DNA of 33,154 nucleotides from a virus, in IMG/VR virus record IMGVR_UViG_3300020200_000102, positions 1 through 33,154 of that record, one strand, 5' to 3'. Position 1 is the stretch's first letter. The number at the start of each line of letters is the position of its first letter. Made by a program: the position numbers and the translations under genes. This document shows positions 607 to 32,917 of the stretch, one piece after another. A model generated the notes under the pieces. It ran no database searches. It saw only the letters and a program-made list of their open reading frames with translations, and had not been told where the DNA came from.

Positions 607-882
607 ATGAAACAGCTAATAGAACAGATACGGCTTAAGAAGACAGCAGGCCTTTTAAAAGAGAATCAAGACAGAGCTTACTCAGAAGCCCAATGGCACA
701 TGGACAAGTTCATGGACGACAACGCATCATTTGACGAGTACTATAGCTTGGTACAGGCCAAAGACGTTGAAGGTATGGTAGAATTCTTAGAGAATAATGT
801 GGCATCAGAAGAGATGATGTTAAGTTATTTTCCAGAAGGAGGCACCATAGAAGGATTTGCCCAGCACCTAATCAATAACTAA
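607..882 (+). CDS. small acidic protein with candidate capsid-targeting N-terminus (91 aa)
   Basis: No family is recognised. The N-terminus is basic and amphipathic (MKQLIEQIRLKK) and leads to AGLLKE at residues 14-19, an [L/I]-x-E site like those cleaved by T4-type prohead proteases. The remainder is helical and acidic, with aromatic residues and clusters such as FDEYY. The stop codon overlaps the next start (TAATGATG), so it is translationally coupled to the metallopeptidase-like gene. The shared N-terminal style and the operon suggest it belongs to the candidate packaged-protein set, which is inference. Confidence 0.65.
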   Translation: MKQLIEQIRLKKTAGLLKENQDRAYSEAQWHMDKFMDDNASFDEYYSLVQAKDVEGMVEFLENNVASEEMMLSYFPEGGTIEGFAQHLINN

Positions 883-1652
883 TGATGAAGTTAGTAGACT
901 TACTAAGAGAGGCGAATATAATAAAAGTTCCAGAGGAGGTATTGTCTAAACTCCCAGGAATTTATAAGGACTTAGACACTAATTTTGAGGAGTATTTAAA
1001 ACAAGCTCCTAAGAGTTATTTAAAACCATTAATTCCTAGTAAATTTGATAAAGTATTTAAGTTTAAAGACTTGGCAGGAAAAGACCTTGAGGTATCTGTT
1101 GGTTTATATAACGATGAAGATGACAGTGGAGGAGGAAGGATGGACACAGTCAACGATATTATGTTGATCAACCTAGCTTTTCTTGGTGATGAGGATGCTT
1201 TTTTGGAACTAGGAGAGCATGAATTAGTACATGCTATGGACCCTAAGGTTAGAGACCAAAAGTTATTTGGTGTACAGTATGCTAAGAAAGGAGCGGATCC
1301 AAATAAGAACTTAGAAAAGTATACCAAGTCACCTTGGGAGTTTGATGCATTTACGGCTCCTTTACTAAATAAACTAAAGAAGGGCTTGGATAGATCAGGA
1401 AATAAGGAATTTTTCAAGACATCGATGATGAAGCTATTGTCTGCAATTCCTAAAAAGTCGGTTGAAGATATTATGCAAGATGATGAGTTGTTGAGAAACG
1501 CTTGGTTTTTTAGTACCAAAGAATGGACACAAGAGAATTGGCCAGATGTGTCTAGGTCTTTTTATACAGATATACAGAACATGAAAATGTGGGCAAGTAA
1601 ACCTACTTTATACAAAAGGTTTTTGCAAAGATATGCAACAGTAGTAAAGTAA
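882..1652 (+). CDS. HExxH zinc metallopeptidase-like protein (256 aa)
   Basis: The product carries HELVH at residues 113-117, preceded by a hydrophobic helix and followed by AMD (D120). This is the zincin active-site signature, in which two His bind zinc and the Glu is the general base. The third zinc ligand cannot be fixed by eye; D120 or an acidic residue further downstream are candidates. The N-terminus MMKLVDLLREA matches the MK-L-x-x-L-L-x-E pattern seen in several genes here, with a potential cut after LRE (residues 8-10). Start codons at 882 and 885 are both possible; 885 would give the more typical MKLVDLL. It overlaps the upstream stop and lies 4 nt before the next gene, so it is part of an operon. 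The substrate is unknown. It is not obviously related to the metallopeptidase domain at 31658 beyond the HELVH motif. Confidence 0.7.
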   Translation: MMKLVDLLREANIIKVPEEVLSKLPGIYKDLDTNFEEYLKQAPKSYLKPLIPSKFDKVFKFKDLAGKDLEVSVGLYNDEDDSGGGRMDTVNDIMLINLAFLGDEDAFLELGEHELVHAMDPKVRDQKLFGVQYAKKGADPNKNLEKYTKSPWEFDAFTAPLLNKLKKGLDRSGNKEFFKTSMMKLLSAIPKKSVEDIMQDDELLRNAWFFSTKEWTQENWPDVSRSFYTDIQNMKMWASKPTLYKRFLQRYATVVK

Positions 1653-1656
1653 AAGT

Positions 1657-2547
1657 ATGAAACTAATTGATCTACTAAAAGAGATTGGTGACGCTACGGC
1701 TAGACCGTATGAATGGCAAAATATCCGTGATGATAAAGACTCAATAGAGTATGAATTCAAAACAGATTCAGACTTACGCTACATACTAGAAATCATGCCT
1801 CAAGAGGATGAGGAATTACGCGACTCAGCAATTGTAGAATTTGGAATCACTACAGGAGAACACAACTACTTTAAAGACTTTGAAATCATTACAAATGAAG
1901 GAGAATTGTACAAAGTGATGTCGACTGTTGTCGCCATTTTGAAAGACTTTATCAAAAAACACAAAGAGATAAAACACCTAGTCTTCATAACAGAAAATAT
2001 TAGAACCAATCTATACATACATTATATCAAAAAGCAATTACCTAATGCTAAAATACATTCCAAGTCAAAAAAAGACCAAAATACAGTTATTATAGATTTA
2101 AAAGAAATAGGAGACGCTACAGCTAAACCGTATGAATGGGAGACTTGGTCAGGCTATGAAGATGATAAAGAGTATGGGTTTGAAACAGACTCAGGCTTGA
2201 ACTATAAGTTAGAGATAGCTTTTCAAGAAACAGATAGTGAGAAAGACTCAGCTGCTCTAAGCTTTGGAATTGTAGACAAAGAATCAGATTATTCTGTAGA
2301 CTATGAGGCAATACCTAGTAAAGGTGAACTTTATAAGGTCATGGCCACAGTTGTAGATATACTAAAGGACTTTATAAAGAATTACCCAGAGGTTAGATAC
2401 TTGTACTTTTCGACCAATAAGCAACAAGGAGATCAAAGCTCAAGACTAAAACTATATATGAAGTACATACAGTCACAGATACCGAATGCCAAGATATATA
2501 CAAAGGATATAGATGGTGAAGAAGCTACATATATTACTTTGAAGTAA
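1657..2547 (+). CDS. tandemly duplicated protein with two LKE-IGDATA sites (296 aa)
   Basis: The protein consists of two homologous halves of about 141-146 aa. Half 1 starts at IGDATARPYEW (residue 10) and half 2 at IGDATAKPYEW (residue 151). Each then has an acidic beta-rich part, GELYKVM followed by a hydrophobic helix with LKDFIK, and finally a segment ending in PNAKI (129-133 and 276-280). LKE immediately precedes both IGDATA motifs, at residues 7-9 and 148-150. The N-terminus MKLIDLLKE fits the capsid-targeting pattern, and IIDLKE before half 2 looks like the remnant of a second copy's start, so the gene probably arose by fusion of tandem duplicates. No enzymatic motif is visible. If a prohead protease cuts after LKE, two similar mature domains would result (inference). 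Confidence 0.75.
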   Translation: MKLIDLLKEIGDATARPYEWQNIRDDKDSIEYEFKTDSDLRYILEIMPQEDEELRDSAIVEFGITTGEHNYFKDFEIITNEGELYKVMSTVVAILKDFIKKHKEIKHLVFITENIRTNLYIHYIKKQLPNAKIHSKSKKDQNTVIIDLKEIGDATAKPYEWETWSGYEDDKEYGFETDSGLNYKLEIAFQETDSEKDSAALSFGIVDKESDYSVDYEAIPSKGELYKVMATVVDILKDFIKNYPEVRYLYFSTNKQQGDQSSRLKLYMKYIQSQIPNAKIYTKDIDGEEATYITLK

Positions 2548-7626: not shown

Positions 7627-7866
7627 ATGCGATTCTTTAAAAAAAGTGAATCTGTAAATTTCCAGGTAAATCCTTTAACTTATCAGCCTGGAGGTATTCA
7701 ATTAACCATTCTATTCTCAGATGGTACTTATGAGATTACTCATAATAAGATTAAATACCCAAAAAAATATACTTTAACCTTAGTAGACAAATACAGCCAT
7801 ACCAAAAACCCTGTAGTAAAGGTATATCATCAATCTGGTATTATATATGAAAAGAATAAGTCCTGA
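7627..7866 (+). CDS. hypothetical beta-rich protein (79 aa)
   Basis: A 79-aa lysine-rich protein that is probably mostly beta strand (GIQLTILFSDGTYEITHNKI, then YTLTLVDKYS). It overlaps the start of the following T5orf172 gene by 20 nt in another frame. No catalytic motif or family is recognisable. Confidence 0.5.
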   Translation: MRFFKKSESVNFQVNPLTYQPGGIQLTILFSDGTYEITHNKIKYPKKYTLTLVDKYSHTKNPVVKVYHQSGIIYEKNKS

Positions 7867-8338
7867 ACAAGCACACTTCTATGTTAAATTAACAGGAGAT
7901 GATCCTCGGAAGATGGAGAAGGCTGTGGCCTTTACATTGACTGATTCCAATGAGCCTGGTTGGCAAGACGTTACCTATTATGGTGAAGGTATTTTAGATC
8001 CTACCTCTAGTGTAAAGAAGCCAGAATGGGTTTATGTGTTAGTTAATAAAGGAGTTCCTGGTATTTGTAAGATTGGTATGACTACCACCTCTGTAAGTAA
8101 ACGTGTCAAAGATATTAATAGTGCTACAGGAGTTATTACTCCCTGGTTCCCTGTCTATAAGTATAAGTGCATCAATAGTAAAATCTTAGAAAAGGCCGTT
8201 CATGAAAAGCTAGGTAAATTAGGATATCGTGTTAACCCTAAACGTGAAGGCTTTGAAATTGACTCTAATACTGCCATTAACTTGATTAAAGAACTAGGAG
8301 ACGATCTTACTGTCACACCTAAAGACTTTAGTAAGTAA
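7847..8338 (+). CDS. T5orf172 / GIY-YIG-like domain protein (163 aa)
   Basis: Residues 62-150 fit the T5orf172 branch of the GIY-YIG superfamily: WVYVLVNKG at 63-71, CKIGMTTTSVSKRVKDIN with the conserved KIG and Arg, a central strand YKYKC, and EKAVHEKLGKLGYR, followed by REGFEI. These proteins are usually predicted nucleases in phages and mobile elements. The first 60 residues are a separate, unassigned N-terminal part. It overlaps the preceding gene. Target DNA is unknown, and a homing role is possible but not shown. Confidence 0.7.
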   Translation: MKRISPEQAHFYVKLTGDDPRKMEKAVAFTLTDSNEPGWQDVTYYGEGILDPTSSVKKPEWVYVLVNKGVPGICKIGMTTTSVSKRVKDINSATGVITPWFPVYKYKCINSKILEKAVHEKLGKLGYRVNPKREGFEIDSNTAINLIKELGDDLTVTPKDFSK

Positions 8339-8704: not shown

Positions 8705-10054
8705 ATGAAAGACTTTAATATTGCTAAATACCTTAAAGAAAACTATCAAGGACCATTTAGTATGTTTCAACCTTATACTGATCTTAATCCTTTAAAAGAA
8801 GAAATCAAAGGTAAATTCGCTGATGGCGGAGGAATAAAAAAATCTCCAACAGAAGCAACTATAAAAATGCACATCAATACTTACTCTGTATCAGATGACC
8901 CATACGAGATTGCTAAAGAATTAGGTGAGAAGTATGGCTGGAGTGAAAAAGAAATTGAAAAAGCAGAATCAATAATTCGGAAAAAATATATTAAAGAAGA
9001 TGGCGAGGAGATGGCCGGGGGTAGAATGATGGAAGATGGTGGTAAAGTTACAGATAAAGAATTAAGCTCTGAAAAAGACGTCACTATGAGATTTGATCTA
9101 TCTGATCCTGAGTCTAGTGAAGACGCTTATGAGTGGATTCTCGATAATATTTCTGATAATGAAGATTTTGTAATCTCAAAAAATGAAGATTATGAATTTA
9201 GACAAGCTCCTATTGAAGATATTGTTGACATAATTAATGATAGACTTAAAAATGCTACTATTGATATTGTAAACAATACTATAACTGATGAACTGACACA
9301 AGAGTATCAAGAGTGGGTGAAGCAAAATAATCTTCCTGAAATGAGTGCTGATGAACTTCTTTATGACGATTCTATTGAAAAGACTCCTGAGCAAGAAAAG
9401 TATCTTAAAGACTTTCTTGATAGGTGGGATAGTACAGACGATTATATTACATTAGCTATAACAAACACGCCACAAATAAAAGAAGCTTTTAGTGCTGAAC
9501 AAGAGAAGTTCGATCGTATGATGGGGCTTATTGATAGAACATTAGAAACACAACTTCATAAAATTAAAAATGCAGTAGATAAAGCTAGAAAGATGATGAT
9601 CTCTGACAAATCTATTTTTAATATGCTTTCTACTAGCTCACTAACTAAACAATCAGTTAAAGATCTTGTTGGTGCTGGGTTTGATCCAATGGACATTGTT
9701 GACTTCTTTGCTACCGACTTTTCTATTGCAGAAGATCGTGATAATGTAACTGCCGCAGACAATGCTGCTTATGGTGCAGATCAAGAAATAGGTGAACCTG
9801 TTGAAGAAGAGGTAACTGTATCTTCATCCGGTGTAGAAATGGAAGGTCTAGATGAAGAAATTGATATCTGGCAAATAGCTGGAGATCACCTTGAAGCCTT
9901 TAGATATCAACTAGCTAGCGCTCATGCTGTAGCAAGCCAATCAGGACAGAAAGAATGGGTAAGCGCCATTAATAAAATTGCTTTACGTTTAGATGCTCTT
10001 GAAGGTGCAATGGCAGAAGCCAGTGCTAAACTAGGAGTACTACCTACAAAATAA
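8705..10054 (+). CDS. large acidic protein with candidate capsid-targeting N-terminus (449 aa)
   Basis: The N-terminus MKDFNIAKYLKENYQGPF ends in LKE (residues 10-12), fitting the candidate prohead-cleavage pattern. After it come a Gly-rich patch (FADGGGIKK, residues 38-46), an acidic helical body with many D and E, a second Gly-rich patch AGGRMMEDGGK (103-113), and a C-terminal helical segment DIWQIAGDHLEAFRYQLASA. No enzyme motif is seen. The acidic helical composition would suit a head-internal, scaffold or core protein. It is the last plus-strand gene before the converging block and has its own terminator. Function is unknown. Confidence 0.7.
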   Translation: MKDFNIAKYLKENYQGPFSMFQPYTDLNPLKEEIKGKFADGGGIKKSPTEATIKMHINTYSVSDDPYEIAKELGEKYGWSEKEIEKAESIIRKKYIKEDGEEMAGGRMMEDGGKVTDKELSSEKDVTMRFDLSDPESSEDAYEWILDNISDNEDFVISKNEDYEFRQAPIEDIVDIINDRLKNATIDIVNNTITDELTQEYQEWVKQNNLPEMSADELLYDDSIEKTPEQEKYLKDFLDRWDSTDDYITLAITNTPQIKEAFSAEQEKFDRMMGLIDRTLETQLHKIKNAVDKARKMMISDKSIFNMLSTSSLTKQSVKDLVGAGFDPMDIVDFFATDFSIAEDRDNVTAADNAAYGADQEIGEPVEEEVTVSSSGVEMEGLDEEIDIWQIAGDHLEAFRYQLASAHAVASQSGQKEWVSAINKIALRLDALEGAMAEASAKLGVLPTK

Positions 10055-10112: not shown

Positions 10113-10556
10113 TTACAGATCTTTTCTATAGAACCTTCCTTGTATATTATCGTTGTATGATTCTATTTGAAGTACTCTTAAATGCATCTGCCAATATACT
10201 TCATAGTAGTTTAACTGTTTCTTACTTTTACAGAATGTTAATATCTCTCTAGTAAAGCAGTCCTCGCCTAGATCTTTCAAGTCTTGTTTGATTAATTTGC
10301 TACTTCCCCAATAAGTATCCCAATTCGATTCTTTCTGTAACTTACGCTTCTTTGGGACGCGCCCAGGTTTGTCCCACACCGCGATCTCCTTCTTGGTCAA
10401 TATCTTGGTCACATTATTATACAAGACCTTTCTACCAATATAGAAACGGCCATCACATATATTAGTGATCTTGTATACGAACCCAAAAGTGTCTGGTGGG
10501 AAATCCTCTAGTGTTCGAAACTCTTTATTATTGTGCAACCACTTCTTATAACTCAT
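10113..10556 (-). CDS. GIY-YIG endonuclease-like protein (147 aa)
   Basis: The motif FGFVYKITNICDGRFYIGRK gives the two GIY-YIG core elements (VY then YIG) with the conserved Arg/Lys after it. TKKEIA, WDTYWGSSKLIKQDLKDLG and a Glu-containing FTREILTFC segment follow in the order usual for a small nuclease family common in T4-like phages. I choose the internal ATG at 10556 (MSYKKWLHNNKEF), which matches the family's usual beginning and has an A-rich leader. An upstream ATG at 10580 would add 8 residues and overlap the preceding gene. It ends the minus-strand tail operon. It could be a free-standing homing or mobile nuclease. Confidence 0.75.
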   Translation of the reverse strand: MSYKKWLHNNKEFRTLEDFPPDTFGFVYKITNICDGRFYIGRKVLYNNVTKILTKKEIAVWDKPGRVPKKRKLQKESNWDTYWGSSKLIKQDLKDLGEDCFTREILTFCKSKKQLNYYEVYWQMHLRVLQIESYNDNIQGRFYRKDL

Positions 10557-10567
10557 TTGGTTTTGTT

Positions 10568-11461
10568 TTAGCTGTCCCACCTTACTATAAATGTCATATC
10601 TGTATTAGGTGGCATTCTGTATGGTCTTGATAGTTTACCCACTACCAATAATTCATTTACATCGTTATATAAACCTACTGTTGTTGAATATGGATCAAAG
10701 TCTGATCCTGTTATTGCATTAATATATGATCCTGTTGTACCTGATTGTATTGCACTATGATTCAATGTATAGTTAAAATCGTTTTCATTAACTATGCACC
10801 TAACTTCATTTTGATACACAGTTAGTTCTGCTGTTAAATCAAGTCGTGTATTATAAGAGCTCTCGAACATTAATGTACCAAATTCTGGAGCCTGTGATGT
10901 GATAACTGCTATTCCTTGAGCATAGAATATATTTCCTACTCTTTGATTAATAACAGTTCCAGAGTTAACTTCTATTAAGTTACCATTACTGTCATCGATA
11001 ATTTGCCAATTTCTTACTTGCATACCATCTACAGTAGAACCAGACATATAAAAACTCTTTCTAGCTATTTGCTGGCCATAAATTAATCTTGGTATACTTA
11101 CAATCCAAAGACCAGCGTCTGAAGCTGTTGGAAAGTATCTAAAGTCATCATCAAATGTTCCTGATGCAGCGGTTGATTGAAGTACATTATCTGCATAAGA
11201 AGCAGTTGTTGGTACAGATCCTGATATATAATTAGAATAATATAGTTGTTTTACTGACTTATAATTTAAAAATGATGCTGTAGATGCGGCAGGTATTTCA
11301 TAGAAGTACGAACTTGTGTAATTAAGCCCTCTTTTATAAGTTATACCTACATTAGACCATAAAGGAGCTGGGCTCACTGTATTATAACTAGCAAAATATT
11401 TTACTTGTATAGGTACAGAGGTTACATCTGATGTCTTCAGTGTATTTGATGCTCTGCTCAT
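10568..11461 (-). CDS. tail fibre / baseplate-associated structural protein (297 aa)
   Basis: The protein is rich in S, T, N, Y and G, with beta-strand patterns and no catalytic motif, as expected for a tail fibre or fibre adaptor. The C-terminal 38 residues begin TTVGLYNDVNELLVVGKLSR (from residue 260) and correspond to the same module in the next gene (12502). CIVNENDFNYTLN just before it matches VRVKNQDYNYTTN there. This module recurs in structural proteins of marine and environmental T4-like phages. The gene is in the late structural operon, 9 nt from its neighbour. The exact position in the virion is unknown. Confidence 0.65.
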   Translation of the reverse strand: MSRASNTLKTSDVTSVPIQVKYFASYNTVSPAPLWSNVGITYKRGLNYTSSYFYEIPAASTASFLNYKSVKQLYYSNYISGSVPTTASYADNVLQSTAASGTFDDDFRYFPTASDAGLWIVSIPRLIYGQQIARKSFYMSGSTVDGMQVRNWQIIDDSNGNLIEVNSGTVINQRVGNIFYAQGIAVITSQAPEFGTLMFESSYNTRLDLTAELTVYQNEVRCIVNENDFNYTLNHSAIQSGTTGSYINAITGSDFDPYSTTVGLYNDVNELLVVGKLSRPYRMPPNTDMTFIVRWDS

Positions 11462-29893: not shown

Positions 29894-30679
29894 ATGATTA
29901 AGCTACTAGATTTGTTAATTGAAGCCAAAGGCCAAAAGAAGGCTATTGTCATGGCAGGTGGAGCTGGTGTCGGTAAGTCTACCTTTGTTAAGAAGATCAG
30001 ACAAGACCTACAAAAGAATGGCTGGATAGAGCTGAACGCTGACAAATATGTAGAAGACCCTGAGTCTGACATGTTTAACAACTTAGCTAGAGCATCTATT
30101 AGAATAGACAAAGTAGAACTTCCTGAGACCATTAAGTCTGGAAAGAACTTCTTGTATGACACTACTGCAAGTAACGTACAAAGAGTCACTTCTATCAAAG
30201 ATAATGGCTATGATGTTATGATAGTCATGATCTATACTAACCCAATAGTTAGCTTCTCTCGTAACTTTAAACGTGAACGTAAAGTACCAACTGTAGGAGT
30301 CCTATCTAGTTGGAACAACATATACAAGAACATTGATACCTATAAAAAGACCTTTGGTAACAACTTCTATCTAGTTCAAACTACCATGACAGCTGAAGAA
30401 GAGTCAATGGTAAAAGAGTTTGAGAAGGCGTTCAAGCAAGGTAAGCTGAAAGAGTTCTTTGAGAGCTTACTATCCTCAGACAAGTTTAAGTCAACATTTA
30501 GAAAGGACCCAACTAAACAGAAGAGCCCTGAAGAGATTGCAAAGTCAAAAGCTATAGTAGACAAGCAGATCGACATACTAGCTGGTCAATTCGACAAGAT
30601 AGAGAAAGACGTTGAAAGAGTTAAGCCTGTGACTATGGATCAAGCAGTCGCTAAAGCAAAACAGTTTATTTCTAAGTGA
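29894..30679 (+). CDS. P-loop kinase, zeta-toxin/AAA_33-like, with candidate capsid-targeting N-terminus (261 aa)
   Basis: The Walker A motif GGAGVGKST sits at residues 22-30, right after the N-terminal MIKLLDLLIEAKGQKK. Downstream ELNADKYVEDPESD and FLYDTTASN, then IVMIYTNPIVSFSRN and RERKVP, follow the plan of zeta-toxin/AAA_33-type small-molecule kinases (base or sugar binding acidic motif, then an Arg-bearing lid). The first residues fit the MK-L-x-x-L-L-x-E pattern with a potential cut after LIE (8-10). The substrate is unknown: nucleotide, UDP-sugar or protein. ATATTTAT lies 6 nt before the ATG. It is the first gene of the coupled operon. Confidence 0.75.
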   Translation: MIKLLDLLIEAKGQKKAIVMAGGAGVGKSTFVKKIRQDLQKNGWIELNADKYVEDPESDMFNNLARASIRIDKVELPETIKSGKNFLYDTTASNVQRVTSIKDNGYDVMIVMIYTNPIVSFSRNFKRERKVPTVGVLSSWNNIYKNIDTYKKTFGNNFYLVQTTMTAEEESMVKEFEKAFKQGKLKEFFESLLSSDKFKSTFRKDPTKQKSPEEIAKSKAIVDKQIDILAGQFDKIEKDVERVKPVTMDQAVAKAKQFISK

Positions 30680-31074
30680 TTAAATTAATAAACATATTAA
30701 CTGAGAATGTACATCCGACTTTACAAAAAATTTCTGATGAAGTATCGTCTAAATTATATTGTAATAGGTTTGGCAACTGTGTTCATTTTGCAGAGTTGTT
30801 TGTTTCTGCTGTAGAAAAATATGCTCCTTCATTATTAAATACTTTTTTTGTTATAGAAGGATATGTAACTACAACAGCAGGTAAATTTGAACATACTTGG
30901 ATTGAAACAAAAGACGGAGATAAAATAGACCCAACTTTTGATCAATTCCAAGGAGCTATTAAAAAGATAACAAAAAGCAAAAAGTTTACAGCAGAAAAAT
31001 ATTTAGAAGATACAAAAAAAGGCACTTGGTTTTCTAAAAGAAGAGATGAATTGCCGCAAACTATATATAGATGA
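30676..31074 (+). CDS. transglutaminase-like cysteine peptidase-fold protein (132 aa)
   Basis: A GTG start overlaps the previous stop (GTGA). A Cys-His-Asp set in transglutaminase order is visible: C35 in NRFGNCVHFAELF, H73 in KFEHTWIETKDG and D85 in KIDPTFDQF. The fold can be hydrolase or transferase on peptides or amides. N-terminal MIKLINILTEN matches the capsid-targeting pattern, with LTE at residues 8-10. Small size (132 aa) suggests only the catalytic core. Assignment rests on the residue pattern and has no family-level proof. Confidence 0.6.
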   Translation: MIKLINILTENVHPTLQKISDEVSSKLYCNRFGNCVHFAELFVSAVEKYAPSLLNTFFVIEGYVTTTAGKFEHTWIETKDGDKIDPTFDQFQGAIKKITKSKKFTAEKYLEDTKKGTWFSKRRDELPQTIYR

Positions 31075-31661
31075 TCAACATAGACCATATAGGACGCCAG
31101 ATTGTAGAAGACCTTTTAAAAGAAGCGTCTTCAGATGTAGGCCCTTGTTTTTATCCTGGCAAATTTAAACCGCCACATAAAGGCCACTTTGAAGCAGCTA
31201 AGTATATTGCTTCTAAACCTTATATTAACAAGGTCTATATTATTATATCTAGAGTTACCAAGTTTGATATAACTGCAGAAGATTCACTTTATATATGGAA
31301 AGAATATTTGAAAGCGGAACCTAACCCAAAGATTCAGGTTTCTATTTCAAAAGAATCAACTCCTATAAAAGATATTTTTGTTTTTATGGATAATAATCCA
31401 GAAGTAGATCCTATTTATGTGGCCGGAGCAGCAGAAGAAGTAGAAGGTATAGGTTATTTTGATGCAATACAAAAAAGGTTTCCTGATCGTATAAGAAAAG
31501 AAATAATACCTGATCAATTTGAAAGAATATCTGCTACTCAAATGCGTAATGCAATAGAGACAGGAAACATAAAAAAGTTTGAGAAGTTTATCCCAGACTC
31601 AGCATATAATAAAGGAGCCACTAAAGATGTATTTAGTAGACTGTTGAAAATAATAAAATGA
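31071..31661 (+). CDS. HxGH nucleotidyltransferase, NMNAT/cytidylyltransferase-like (196 aa)
   Basis: GKFKPPHKGHFEAAKYI (HKGH at residues 36-39) is the nucleotide-binding HxGH motif, and ISATQMRNAI (from 153) equals the C-terminal ISSTxxR-type motif typical of NMN or pantetheine adenylyltransferases. YIIISRVTK and DPIYVAGAAEEVEG fill the Rossmann core. The N-terminus has a 20-residue amphipathic extension with IVE and LLKEAS (a potential LKE cut at residues 16-18). It would transfer AMP or CMP to a phosphorylated substrate such as NMN. Overlaps both neighbours by ATGA. Confidence 0.78.
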   Translation: MINIDHIGRQIVEDLLKEASSDVGPCFYPGKFKPPHKGHFEAAKYIASKPYINKVYIIISRVTKFDITAEDSLYIWKEYLKAEPNPKIQVSISKESTPIKDIFVFMDNNPEVDPIYVAGAAEEVEGIGYFDAIQKRFPDRIRKEIIPDQFERISATQMRNAIETGNIKKFEKFIPDSAYNKGATKDVFSRLLKIIK

Positions 31662-32917
31662 CAAATACAGAAAAGATATTAACCGTTGAAGATTTTGTTA
31701 AATTTGCTGTACAAAGACTCGGTATTAATAAAGTGCCTAAATTAAAGTTTACTAGTGACAGAGATTGGGCAGTTGAGCGTCATAGCTTTGGTCAATACAA
31801 TCCTAATGACAATATATTAGAAGTTTATATTAATAATAGAAACATGGCTGACATACTTAGAACACTTGGCCATGAATTAGTACATCACAGACAAAATGAA
31901 CTAGGTAAAATAAAAAACGATTCTGGTAATACTGGCTCTGAAATAGAGAATGAAGCAAACGTCCAAGCAGGAGTGTTAATGCGTGATTATGGTTATATCA
32001 ATGATACTATTTATGAAGCAGTTATTCCTACACTAAAACAAATATATGAGGTAGAAAAATCTGGACGTATTCAAATCTATTGTGATATGGATAGTGTGCT
32101 ATGTGACTTCGAAGGTAGATTTGAACACTACTACGGTGTACCACCTAGAGAGTACGTTAGCGAAAAAGGTCAAAAGATTATGGAAAAAGCCATCGACAAA
32201 ATAGGTGTAGTTTATTGGTCAAATATGCCTTGGATGCCAGACGGCAAAAAATTATGGGAGACTATAGGAAAATATAACCCTATTATCTTAACTAGTTCTG
32301 GTAATTTTGAATATGCAAAAAAAGGTAAGCTAGAGTGGATCAAAAAGAATCTGAACCCACAGCCACAAGATATTATGTTTGCTAATACTGGAAAGAAGTT
32401 TGAAGTGATCAAGAATAAAACACCTGAGGAAATCAAGAGTTCAATGTTAATAGATGATTATTATCCAAATCTTGCTCCATGGAGAGATATTGGTGGTATT
32501 GCTATCATGTATAAATCATATGATCAAGTAAGTGCAATACTAGATAAGTTTAGATTAACAGAAGACAAACTTTCTTATAATATTATTTCATCAGAACAAT
32601 TTAATAAAATATATGTTGAAGATCGTTTAAAAAAAGCTTACTTTGGAAATAAATATAAAAAAGATATTGTGACTGATATTAAACAGTATGGCAAAGGTGA
32701 TTATTGGTGTGTTAGTGAAAATTGTATAGATCACTATAGGGAAAATTCAAACTATATAGATGAAGATGAAACAATTTTACCAACAGGACTAAAAATAGCT
32801 GTAGGCAATCAAGATACTTTTGATAAATATGAAAAAGAAATTAAATTAAAAGCAGATGGATTTTATGATCCACAATTTGATACATATGGTTTAGTTTTGT
32901 TTAAAAAATATAAATAA
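31658..32917 (+). CDS. fusion: HExxH metallopeptidase-like, HAD nucleotidase-like and unknown C-terminal domain (419 aa)
   Basis: Domain 1 (~1-120): GHELVHHRQNE (HELVH at 72-76), followed by IENEANVQAG with an E that can be the third zinc ligand. Domain 2 (~137-300): HAD-type 5'(3')-deoxyribonucleotidase-like with IYCDMDSVLCDFEG (D143/D145), LTSSG (212-216), K near 253 and LIDDYYPN (D266/D267). Domain 3 (~305-419) is unrecognised. The linker at 116-137 holds IYE sites at 118-120 and 129-131. Unlike its neighbours its N-terminus (MTNTEKILTVEDFVK) lacks a clean [L/I]-x-E. Joined to the nucleotidyltransferase by ATGA. Catalytic residues of both enzymes look intact. Confidence 0.75.
   Translation: MTNTEKILTVEDFVKFAVQRLGINKVPKLKFTSDRDWAVERHSFGQYNPNDNILEVYINNRNMADILRTLGHELVHHRQNELGKIKNDSGNTGSEIENEANVQAGVLMRDYGYINDTIYEAVIPTLKQIYEVEKSGRIQIYCDMDSVLCDFEGRFEHYYGVPPREYVSEKGQKIMEKAIDKIGVVYWSNMPWMPDGKKLWETIGKYNPIILTSSGNFEYAKKGKLEWIKKNLNPQPQDIMFANTGKKFEVIKNKTPEEIKSSMLIDDYYPNLAPWRDIGGIAIMYKSYDQVSAILDKFRLTEDKLSYNIISSEQFNKIYVEDRLKKAYFGNKYKKDIVTDIKQYGKGDYWCVSENCIDHYRENSNYIDEDETILPTGLKIAVGNQDTFDKYEKEIKLKADGFYDPQFDTYGLVLFKKYK

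Follow-up and report, generated by a model that had tools for sequence, protein, structure and literature searches.

In bacteriophage T4, gp21 cleaves after L/I-x-E, and the first ten residues of IPIII are enough for packaging (PMC9026906); T4 IPs block type IV restriction enzymes (PMC12373910). A second described system is formed by the polyvalent proteins of phages and conjugative elements, the release of which is ascribed to embedded peptidase domains and which Iyer et al. (2017) compare with viral polyproteins (PMC5512222). Head-protein propeptides, cutting at (L/I)xE and packaged multidomain polyvalent proteins are already known; in the papers searched, we found no description of effector chains cut by a prohead protease.

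Here, we analyze a 33,154-base virus record (the whole stretch, hereafter the window) carrying T4-like tail genes. With a probability of roughly 0.7, its gene at 1657-2547 encodes a precursor of two head-packaged proteins, which is targeted by a leader and cut by a gp21-type protease after each of two LKE triplets; packaging, cleavage, injection and effector function are what we infer from the comparisons presented below.

Results

The phage fragment and its two-unit gene

The baseplate wedge protein of the window is 44% identical to its counterpart in Flavobacterium phage immuto and ~90% identical to proteins from many IMG/VR contigs. The source of the fragment is an uncultivated freshwater T4-like phage group related to immuto. 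The window also carries a SegE-type GIY-YIG homing endonuclease gene (PF19835, 1e-29) amid the tail genes (10113-10580, minus strand) and a gene for a T5orf172 GIY-YIG-like protein (7847-8338).

The gene at 1657-2547 (plus strand) encodes P0001, a putative two-unit precursor of 296 aa delimited by its ORF, Pfam matches and an alignment of its copies. Its leader, MKLIDLLKE (1657-1683, plus strand), ends in an (L/I)xE site (LKE, residues 7-9, nt 1675-1683), resembles the T4 capsid-targeting propeptide and has counterparts in the MVKLIDLLRE and MIKLIDLLTE of single-copy relatives. Unit 1 (residues 10-150; 1684-2106, plus strand) and unit 2 (residues 151-296; 2107-2544, plus strand) are both DUF6934/GNAT-like modules according to Pfam, relatives and predicted structure. 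Unit 1 closes with a second LKE (residues 148-150; 2098-2106, plus strand), the proposed inter-unit cleavage site, to which the junctions of relatives and a linker in the structural model point.

An earlier note made from the sequence alone had described residues 10-150 and 151-296 as homologous copies, and the alignment bears this out: 71/140 positions are identical (50.7%), with a local score of 344 against a mean of 34 and a maximum of 63 for shuffled sequences. The translation likewise confirms the observation that IGDATA(R/K)PYEW stands directly after both LKE triplets. P0001 matches Pfam DUF6934 (PF22028) in two stretches (8e-18 for the whole protein; 65.2 bits against a gathering cut-off of 27), and this is its only Pfam domain above the cut-off. 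A match of copy 1 to a cyanophage DNA polymerase (E 4-9) was dismissed as chance. Three further [LI]xE triplets, all in predicted strands or strand edges, lie within unit 1 (residues 43, 59 and 111); thus, the triplet alone is not rare, and its position is what is significant.

One suggestion of the note had to be abandoned, namely, that IIDLKE before copy 2 is the relic of a second MKLIDLLKE. IID belongs to the beta-strand that closes copy 1 (residues 141-147) and aligns with ..YITLK-stop at the end of copy 2 and ..SIKLK-stop in a single-copy gene. On this alignment, the leader-derived part could at most be LKE itself, and the simplest origin of the fusion would be that one copy became connected, at its 3' end, to the LKE from the leader of the following copy.

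Predicted structure of the module

DUF6934 is a Pfam domain of unknown function; the family is a general one, and the literature search found no paper naming it. In the AlphaFold model of copy 2 (pLDDT 83), coil extends over the ten residues that follow the site, and in the full-length model, the domains span residues 20-147 and 161-294, with LKE 148-150 opening the linker; the relative placement of the two domains is not fixed by this model because its pTM is 0.55. The fold is predicted to be GNAT-like: the top Foldseek matches of the module model are nearly all GNAT (E 4e-4), and VIA gave Z up to 8.8 (rmsd 3.2 over 116 residues, ~10% identity to GNAT), although such a Z may mean a shared arrangement only. 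The acetyl-CoA motif Q/R-x-x-G-x-G/A is not preserved in the family alignment: the main helix opens with the consensus VTNKGELYRVMAT, which lacks both the second G/A and the leading Q/R. Such a degenerate motif in the modelled fold makes a binding role more likely than a catalytic one. A plausible role for the units, to judge from the T4 IPs, is anti-defence or host takeover after injection.

Conservation of the triplet at internal junctions

A key question is whether the LKE between the copies persists in relatives; its lack of conservation there had been named in the earlier note as an argument against cleavage. Pattern scans with P0001 alone revealed no relative in viral or genome contigs, and relatives were obtained via alignments; the search patterns contained no LxE. 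When the collected loci were searched iteratively with a profile, 141 module hits were obtained in 117 proteins, with many of the hits located within proteins of 300 to 1551 residues. Scans of bacterial genomes and plasmids found no bacterial DUF6934 homologues. Junctions were anchored on the module without using LxE, at least 100 residues upstream were required, and similar junctions were removed, leaving 23. The triplet is conserved: [LIVM]xE exactly precedes the module in 22 of these 23 non-redundant internal junctions, against a background of 1.9% per position (p 3e-37, a naive value because the count comes from related sequences). In the remaining junction, LKE is shifted by one residue, giving 23/23 if such a shift is allowed. 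In proteins with several copies, the site stands before every copy that aligns from the module start, as LSE/IQE in L115, LKE/LKE in L175, LEE/LTE in L196, LDE/MSE in L198, VNE/INE in L218 and VFE/INE in L219.

The most serious alternative, which we nevertheless consider unlikely, is that P0001 is packaged but stays uncut, i.e., the leader is removed at LKE-9, the internal LKE belongs to the linker or fold, and the two domains act joined. The module start VGEA..KPYxW is itself highly conserved, so that LxE could be part of a longer N-terminal element, and the three other [LI]xE triplets of unit 1 caution that this weak motif does not by itself imply cutting. However, the triplet is kept where both the sequence and the spacing after it differ (IFE-GVDSYQW, LTE-AFDRP, LxE-xYPF), conservation falls to background from P4 upstream, and the ten residues past the site are those modelled as coil. 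Moreover, LxE precedes unrelated units: a G[RA]YD..HEIEH unit has the site before it in 8/8 contexts, and in L154, a DUF6267 Pfam match begins a few residues past LSE. Across these alignments, the LxE triplet does not appear to be a property of the module fold. A point against cleavage is that the residue after the junction is I/V here, whereas it is A or S after the matching Glu in T4 gp23 and in the protease and capsid candidates of immuto described below.

When leader-bearing units were compared broadly and automatically with long proteins, a nearby site was present in 111 cases and absent in 56; this comparison was contaminated by baseplate proteins and loose alignments, and only clear single pairs were taken from it, the counts relied on being those anchored on the modules.

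Single-copy relatives, their leaders and the prohead protease

Single-copy versions with a start like MKLIDLLKE-IGDATA, which the earlier note had proposed looking for, were found. L110 and L111, which have the same neighbors, carry one copy at the syntenic place, beginning MVKLIDLLRE-VGEATSRPYDW; the DNA identity between L110 and the window is 84% for the 607-882 gene and 79% for the 3587-3895 gene. Stand-alone copies elsewhere also start with such leaders, that of immuto being MIKLIDLLTE-SLFPF. In two huge phages, the single copy starts with MKYLNS(V/I)Y(N/D)L(I/L)FE-(G/S)VDSYQW, and leader-bearing single copies also occur in many IMG/VR contigs. In the cultured T4-like Vibrio phage ValKK3, DUF6934-like paralogues stand in a row (L004 and L007, 63948-67286 and 100479-103790); their leaders are of the form MKFSEYQ..LTE/LNE, and one example reads MKFSEYQNELTE-AFDRPAQ. 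An internal form, SSVNLTE-AFDRPSK, is present in ORF276 of ValKK3 or its relatives. ORF203 of this phage (DUF6934-like) adjoins an ADP-ribosyltransferase gene, and the N-terminal part of the ADP-ribosyltransferase gives a sub-threshold DUF6934 match (E 0.044). In L182 (3340-5986), five consecutive tandem module genes each have their own leader, ..EKLILE-(I/V)G(E/D), and so parallel the polyproteins in unfused form.

Peptidase_S77, the family to which T4 gp21 belongs, was detected in 13/13 long contigs carrying the module, in immuto (9e-35) and in three relatives identified by their baseplate (G012, G029 and G035); it was not found among the ORFs of the window, a 33-kb fragment. The immuto protease begins MNNPLLINVTPFKGLLTE-S, and the immuto gene at the place expected for the major capsid protein contains QIVSE-ANVTG near residue 59; its location and its likeness to T4 gp23 make this gene a candidate capsid gene. 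Both sites would fit an (L/I)xE specificity with V allowed at P3. A point against the precursor reading is that N-terminal (L/I)xE is only modestly enriched over all immuto ORFs (23% vs 15% in internal windows).

Could P0001 instead be an ordinary intracellular two-domain protein without a virion role, its likeness to protease substrates being due to chance or descent? The general character of the DUF6934 family agrees with this reading. We regard it as improbable, since leaders of the MKLIDLLKE kind are found on several unrelated genes of the window as well as on stand-alone units, and since it leaves both the conservation of the site and the co-occurrence with Peptidase_S77 unexplained.

Interchange of leader-bearing genes and chains

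The precursor reading of P0001 gains further context from other genes of the window. Upstream lies a 91-aa gene (607-882, plus strand; syntenic in L110) with a leader-like N-terminal stretch ending in LKE (residues 17-19). Adjoining the two-unit gene is a leader-bearing gene (882-1652, plus strand; MMKLVDLLRE-A) with a zincin-like HELVH motif, read by eye; it is absent from the syntenic single-copy relative L110. A cluster of three leader-bearing genes (29894-31661, plus strand) encodes a zeta-toxin-like kinase (MIKLLDLLIE), a 132-aa protein (IKLINILTE) and a nucleotidyltransferase-like protein (EDLLKE). The first of these (29894-30679, MIKLLDLLIE-A), a zeta-toxin/P-loop kinase-like protein (PF06414, 5e-12), is a candidate packaged kinase.

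A second probable polyprotein (31658-32917, plus strand) consists of a HELVH unit, IYE (residues 129-131), a HAD unit (QIYCDMDS), LTE (residues 300-302) and a third unit. The HAD unit, fused after IYE in the window, is a stand-alone leader gene in immuto (MKKVMGNLADLLLEE-SDFMPKYQIYCDMDG). In relatives of this protein, DUF6934 is the unit after LxE, in place of the third unit of the window, which follows FRLTE and differs from DUF6934. Three such HExxH-HAD proteins end in a C-terminal DUF6934 unit after FRLQE, FRINE or FRLNE, and this unit is homologous to the stand-alone leader gene of immuto. A third possible multi-unit protein (8705-10054, plus strand) has the leader MKDFNIAKYLKE and an internal IAE (residues 341-343), and its final part is similar to a leader-bearing gene that stands alone in L112. 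Similarly, the A-type unit occurs stand-alone in L116, L117 and L122; in L115 and L120, unit A stops where the stand-alone A genes stop, and the fused forms go on with IQE or ISE and a second unit. Longer relatives contain several distinct effector-type domains per polypeptide, HExxH-like units included. From these comparisons, the joining of head-packaged proteins into cleavable chains seems to be common in this phage group.

It is very improbable that the fusion is an artefact of assembly or sequencing, in which two neighboring single-unit genes were joined by mistake: the fused form of this subtype occurs only in this contig, and its close relatives L110 and L111 have one copy, but the reading frame is continuous, copies only 50% identical do not fit collapsed or erroneous repeats, copy 1 continues from its last strand directly into LKE with no second leader or start between them, and other fused pairs occur in the independent contigs L115, L175, L196 and L198.

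Discussion

In the mechanism that we propose for P0001, the nine-residue leader MKLIDLLKE would bring the chain into the prohead core, as the T4 capsid-targeting sequence does. A gp21-type prohead protease would then cleave behind both LKE triplets, at residues 9 and 150, freeing two small proteins of GNAT-like fold (141 and 146 aa). These would be carried into the host together with the DNA and would probably serve as binding proteins directed at the host or its defences. P0001 would be the most compact case of an organization general to this phage group, with effector units encoded either as leader-bearing genes or in chains of up to 1551 residues, with (L/I/V)xE before each unit.

A broader reading, for which we put the odds only slightly above even, is that these proteins belong to a widespread undescribed polyprotein class of dsDNA phages. 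Uncultivated T4-like phages would chain many injected effectors, including nucleotidyltransferases, HExxH proteins, HAD enzymes, GNAT-like modules and others, into precursors of up to ~1550 residues with one leader, to be cut by the head maturation protease into equal numbers of mature proteins. If this is true, one targeting leader can carry any number of injected proteins into the head, in equal amounts and by means of the existing capsid protease. The rule of a leader or internal (L/I/V)xE followed by a unit would allow packaged effectors to be recognized and cut out in silico in many unannotated long proteins of T4-like environmental phages. The finding also makes it possible to test concretely whether polyproteins serve tailed phages in the way they serve RNA viruses.

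Both copies of P0001 match DUF6934 (PF22028), and the phage copies of this domain bear a leader or site ahead of it. With respect to processing, prohead proteases acting on T4 gp22, gp67 and gp68 and on phiKZ and SPN3US head proteins provide a parallel, in that one protein is cut at several short Glu-ending motifs by a gp21-related protease (PMC9026906, PMC10052503); however, the extra cuts there mostly destroy scaffold or propeptides, whereas here they would liberate several folded proteins. Polyvalent proteins resemble the longer chains in that unrelated effector-like domains are joined in one polypeptide and predicted to be packaged and injected (PMC5512222). They differ in that here, the triplet of the head maturation protease precedes each unit, and the units interchange with leader-bearing single genes; furthermore, the window gene repeats one domain, while its longer relatives join distinct ones.

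The closest likeness in gene architecture is to T4 IPI-IPIII and Alt, which have a short N-terminal leader ending in (L/I)xE and diverse mature parts; the T4 IPs also share a gp21-type protease in the phage group and a probable injected host- or defence-directed role (PMC9026906, PMC12373910). T4 Alt was considered as a carrier of the module domain and rejected, since comparison of the module with its sequence gave no convincing similarity. According to its annotation, T4 itself keeps a broken second copy of the initial portion of alt (L280 23066-23451, alt.-1 and alt.-2), i.e., a partial tandem duplication of a packaged protein. The difference from the T4 IPs lies in the number of units: T4 has one unit per gene, whereas P0001 has a second site inside the chain, and its relatives have several.
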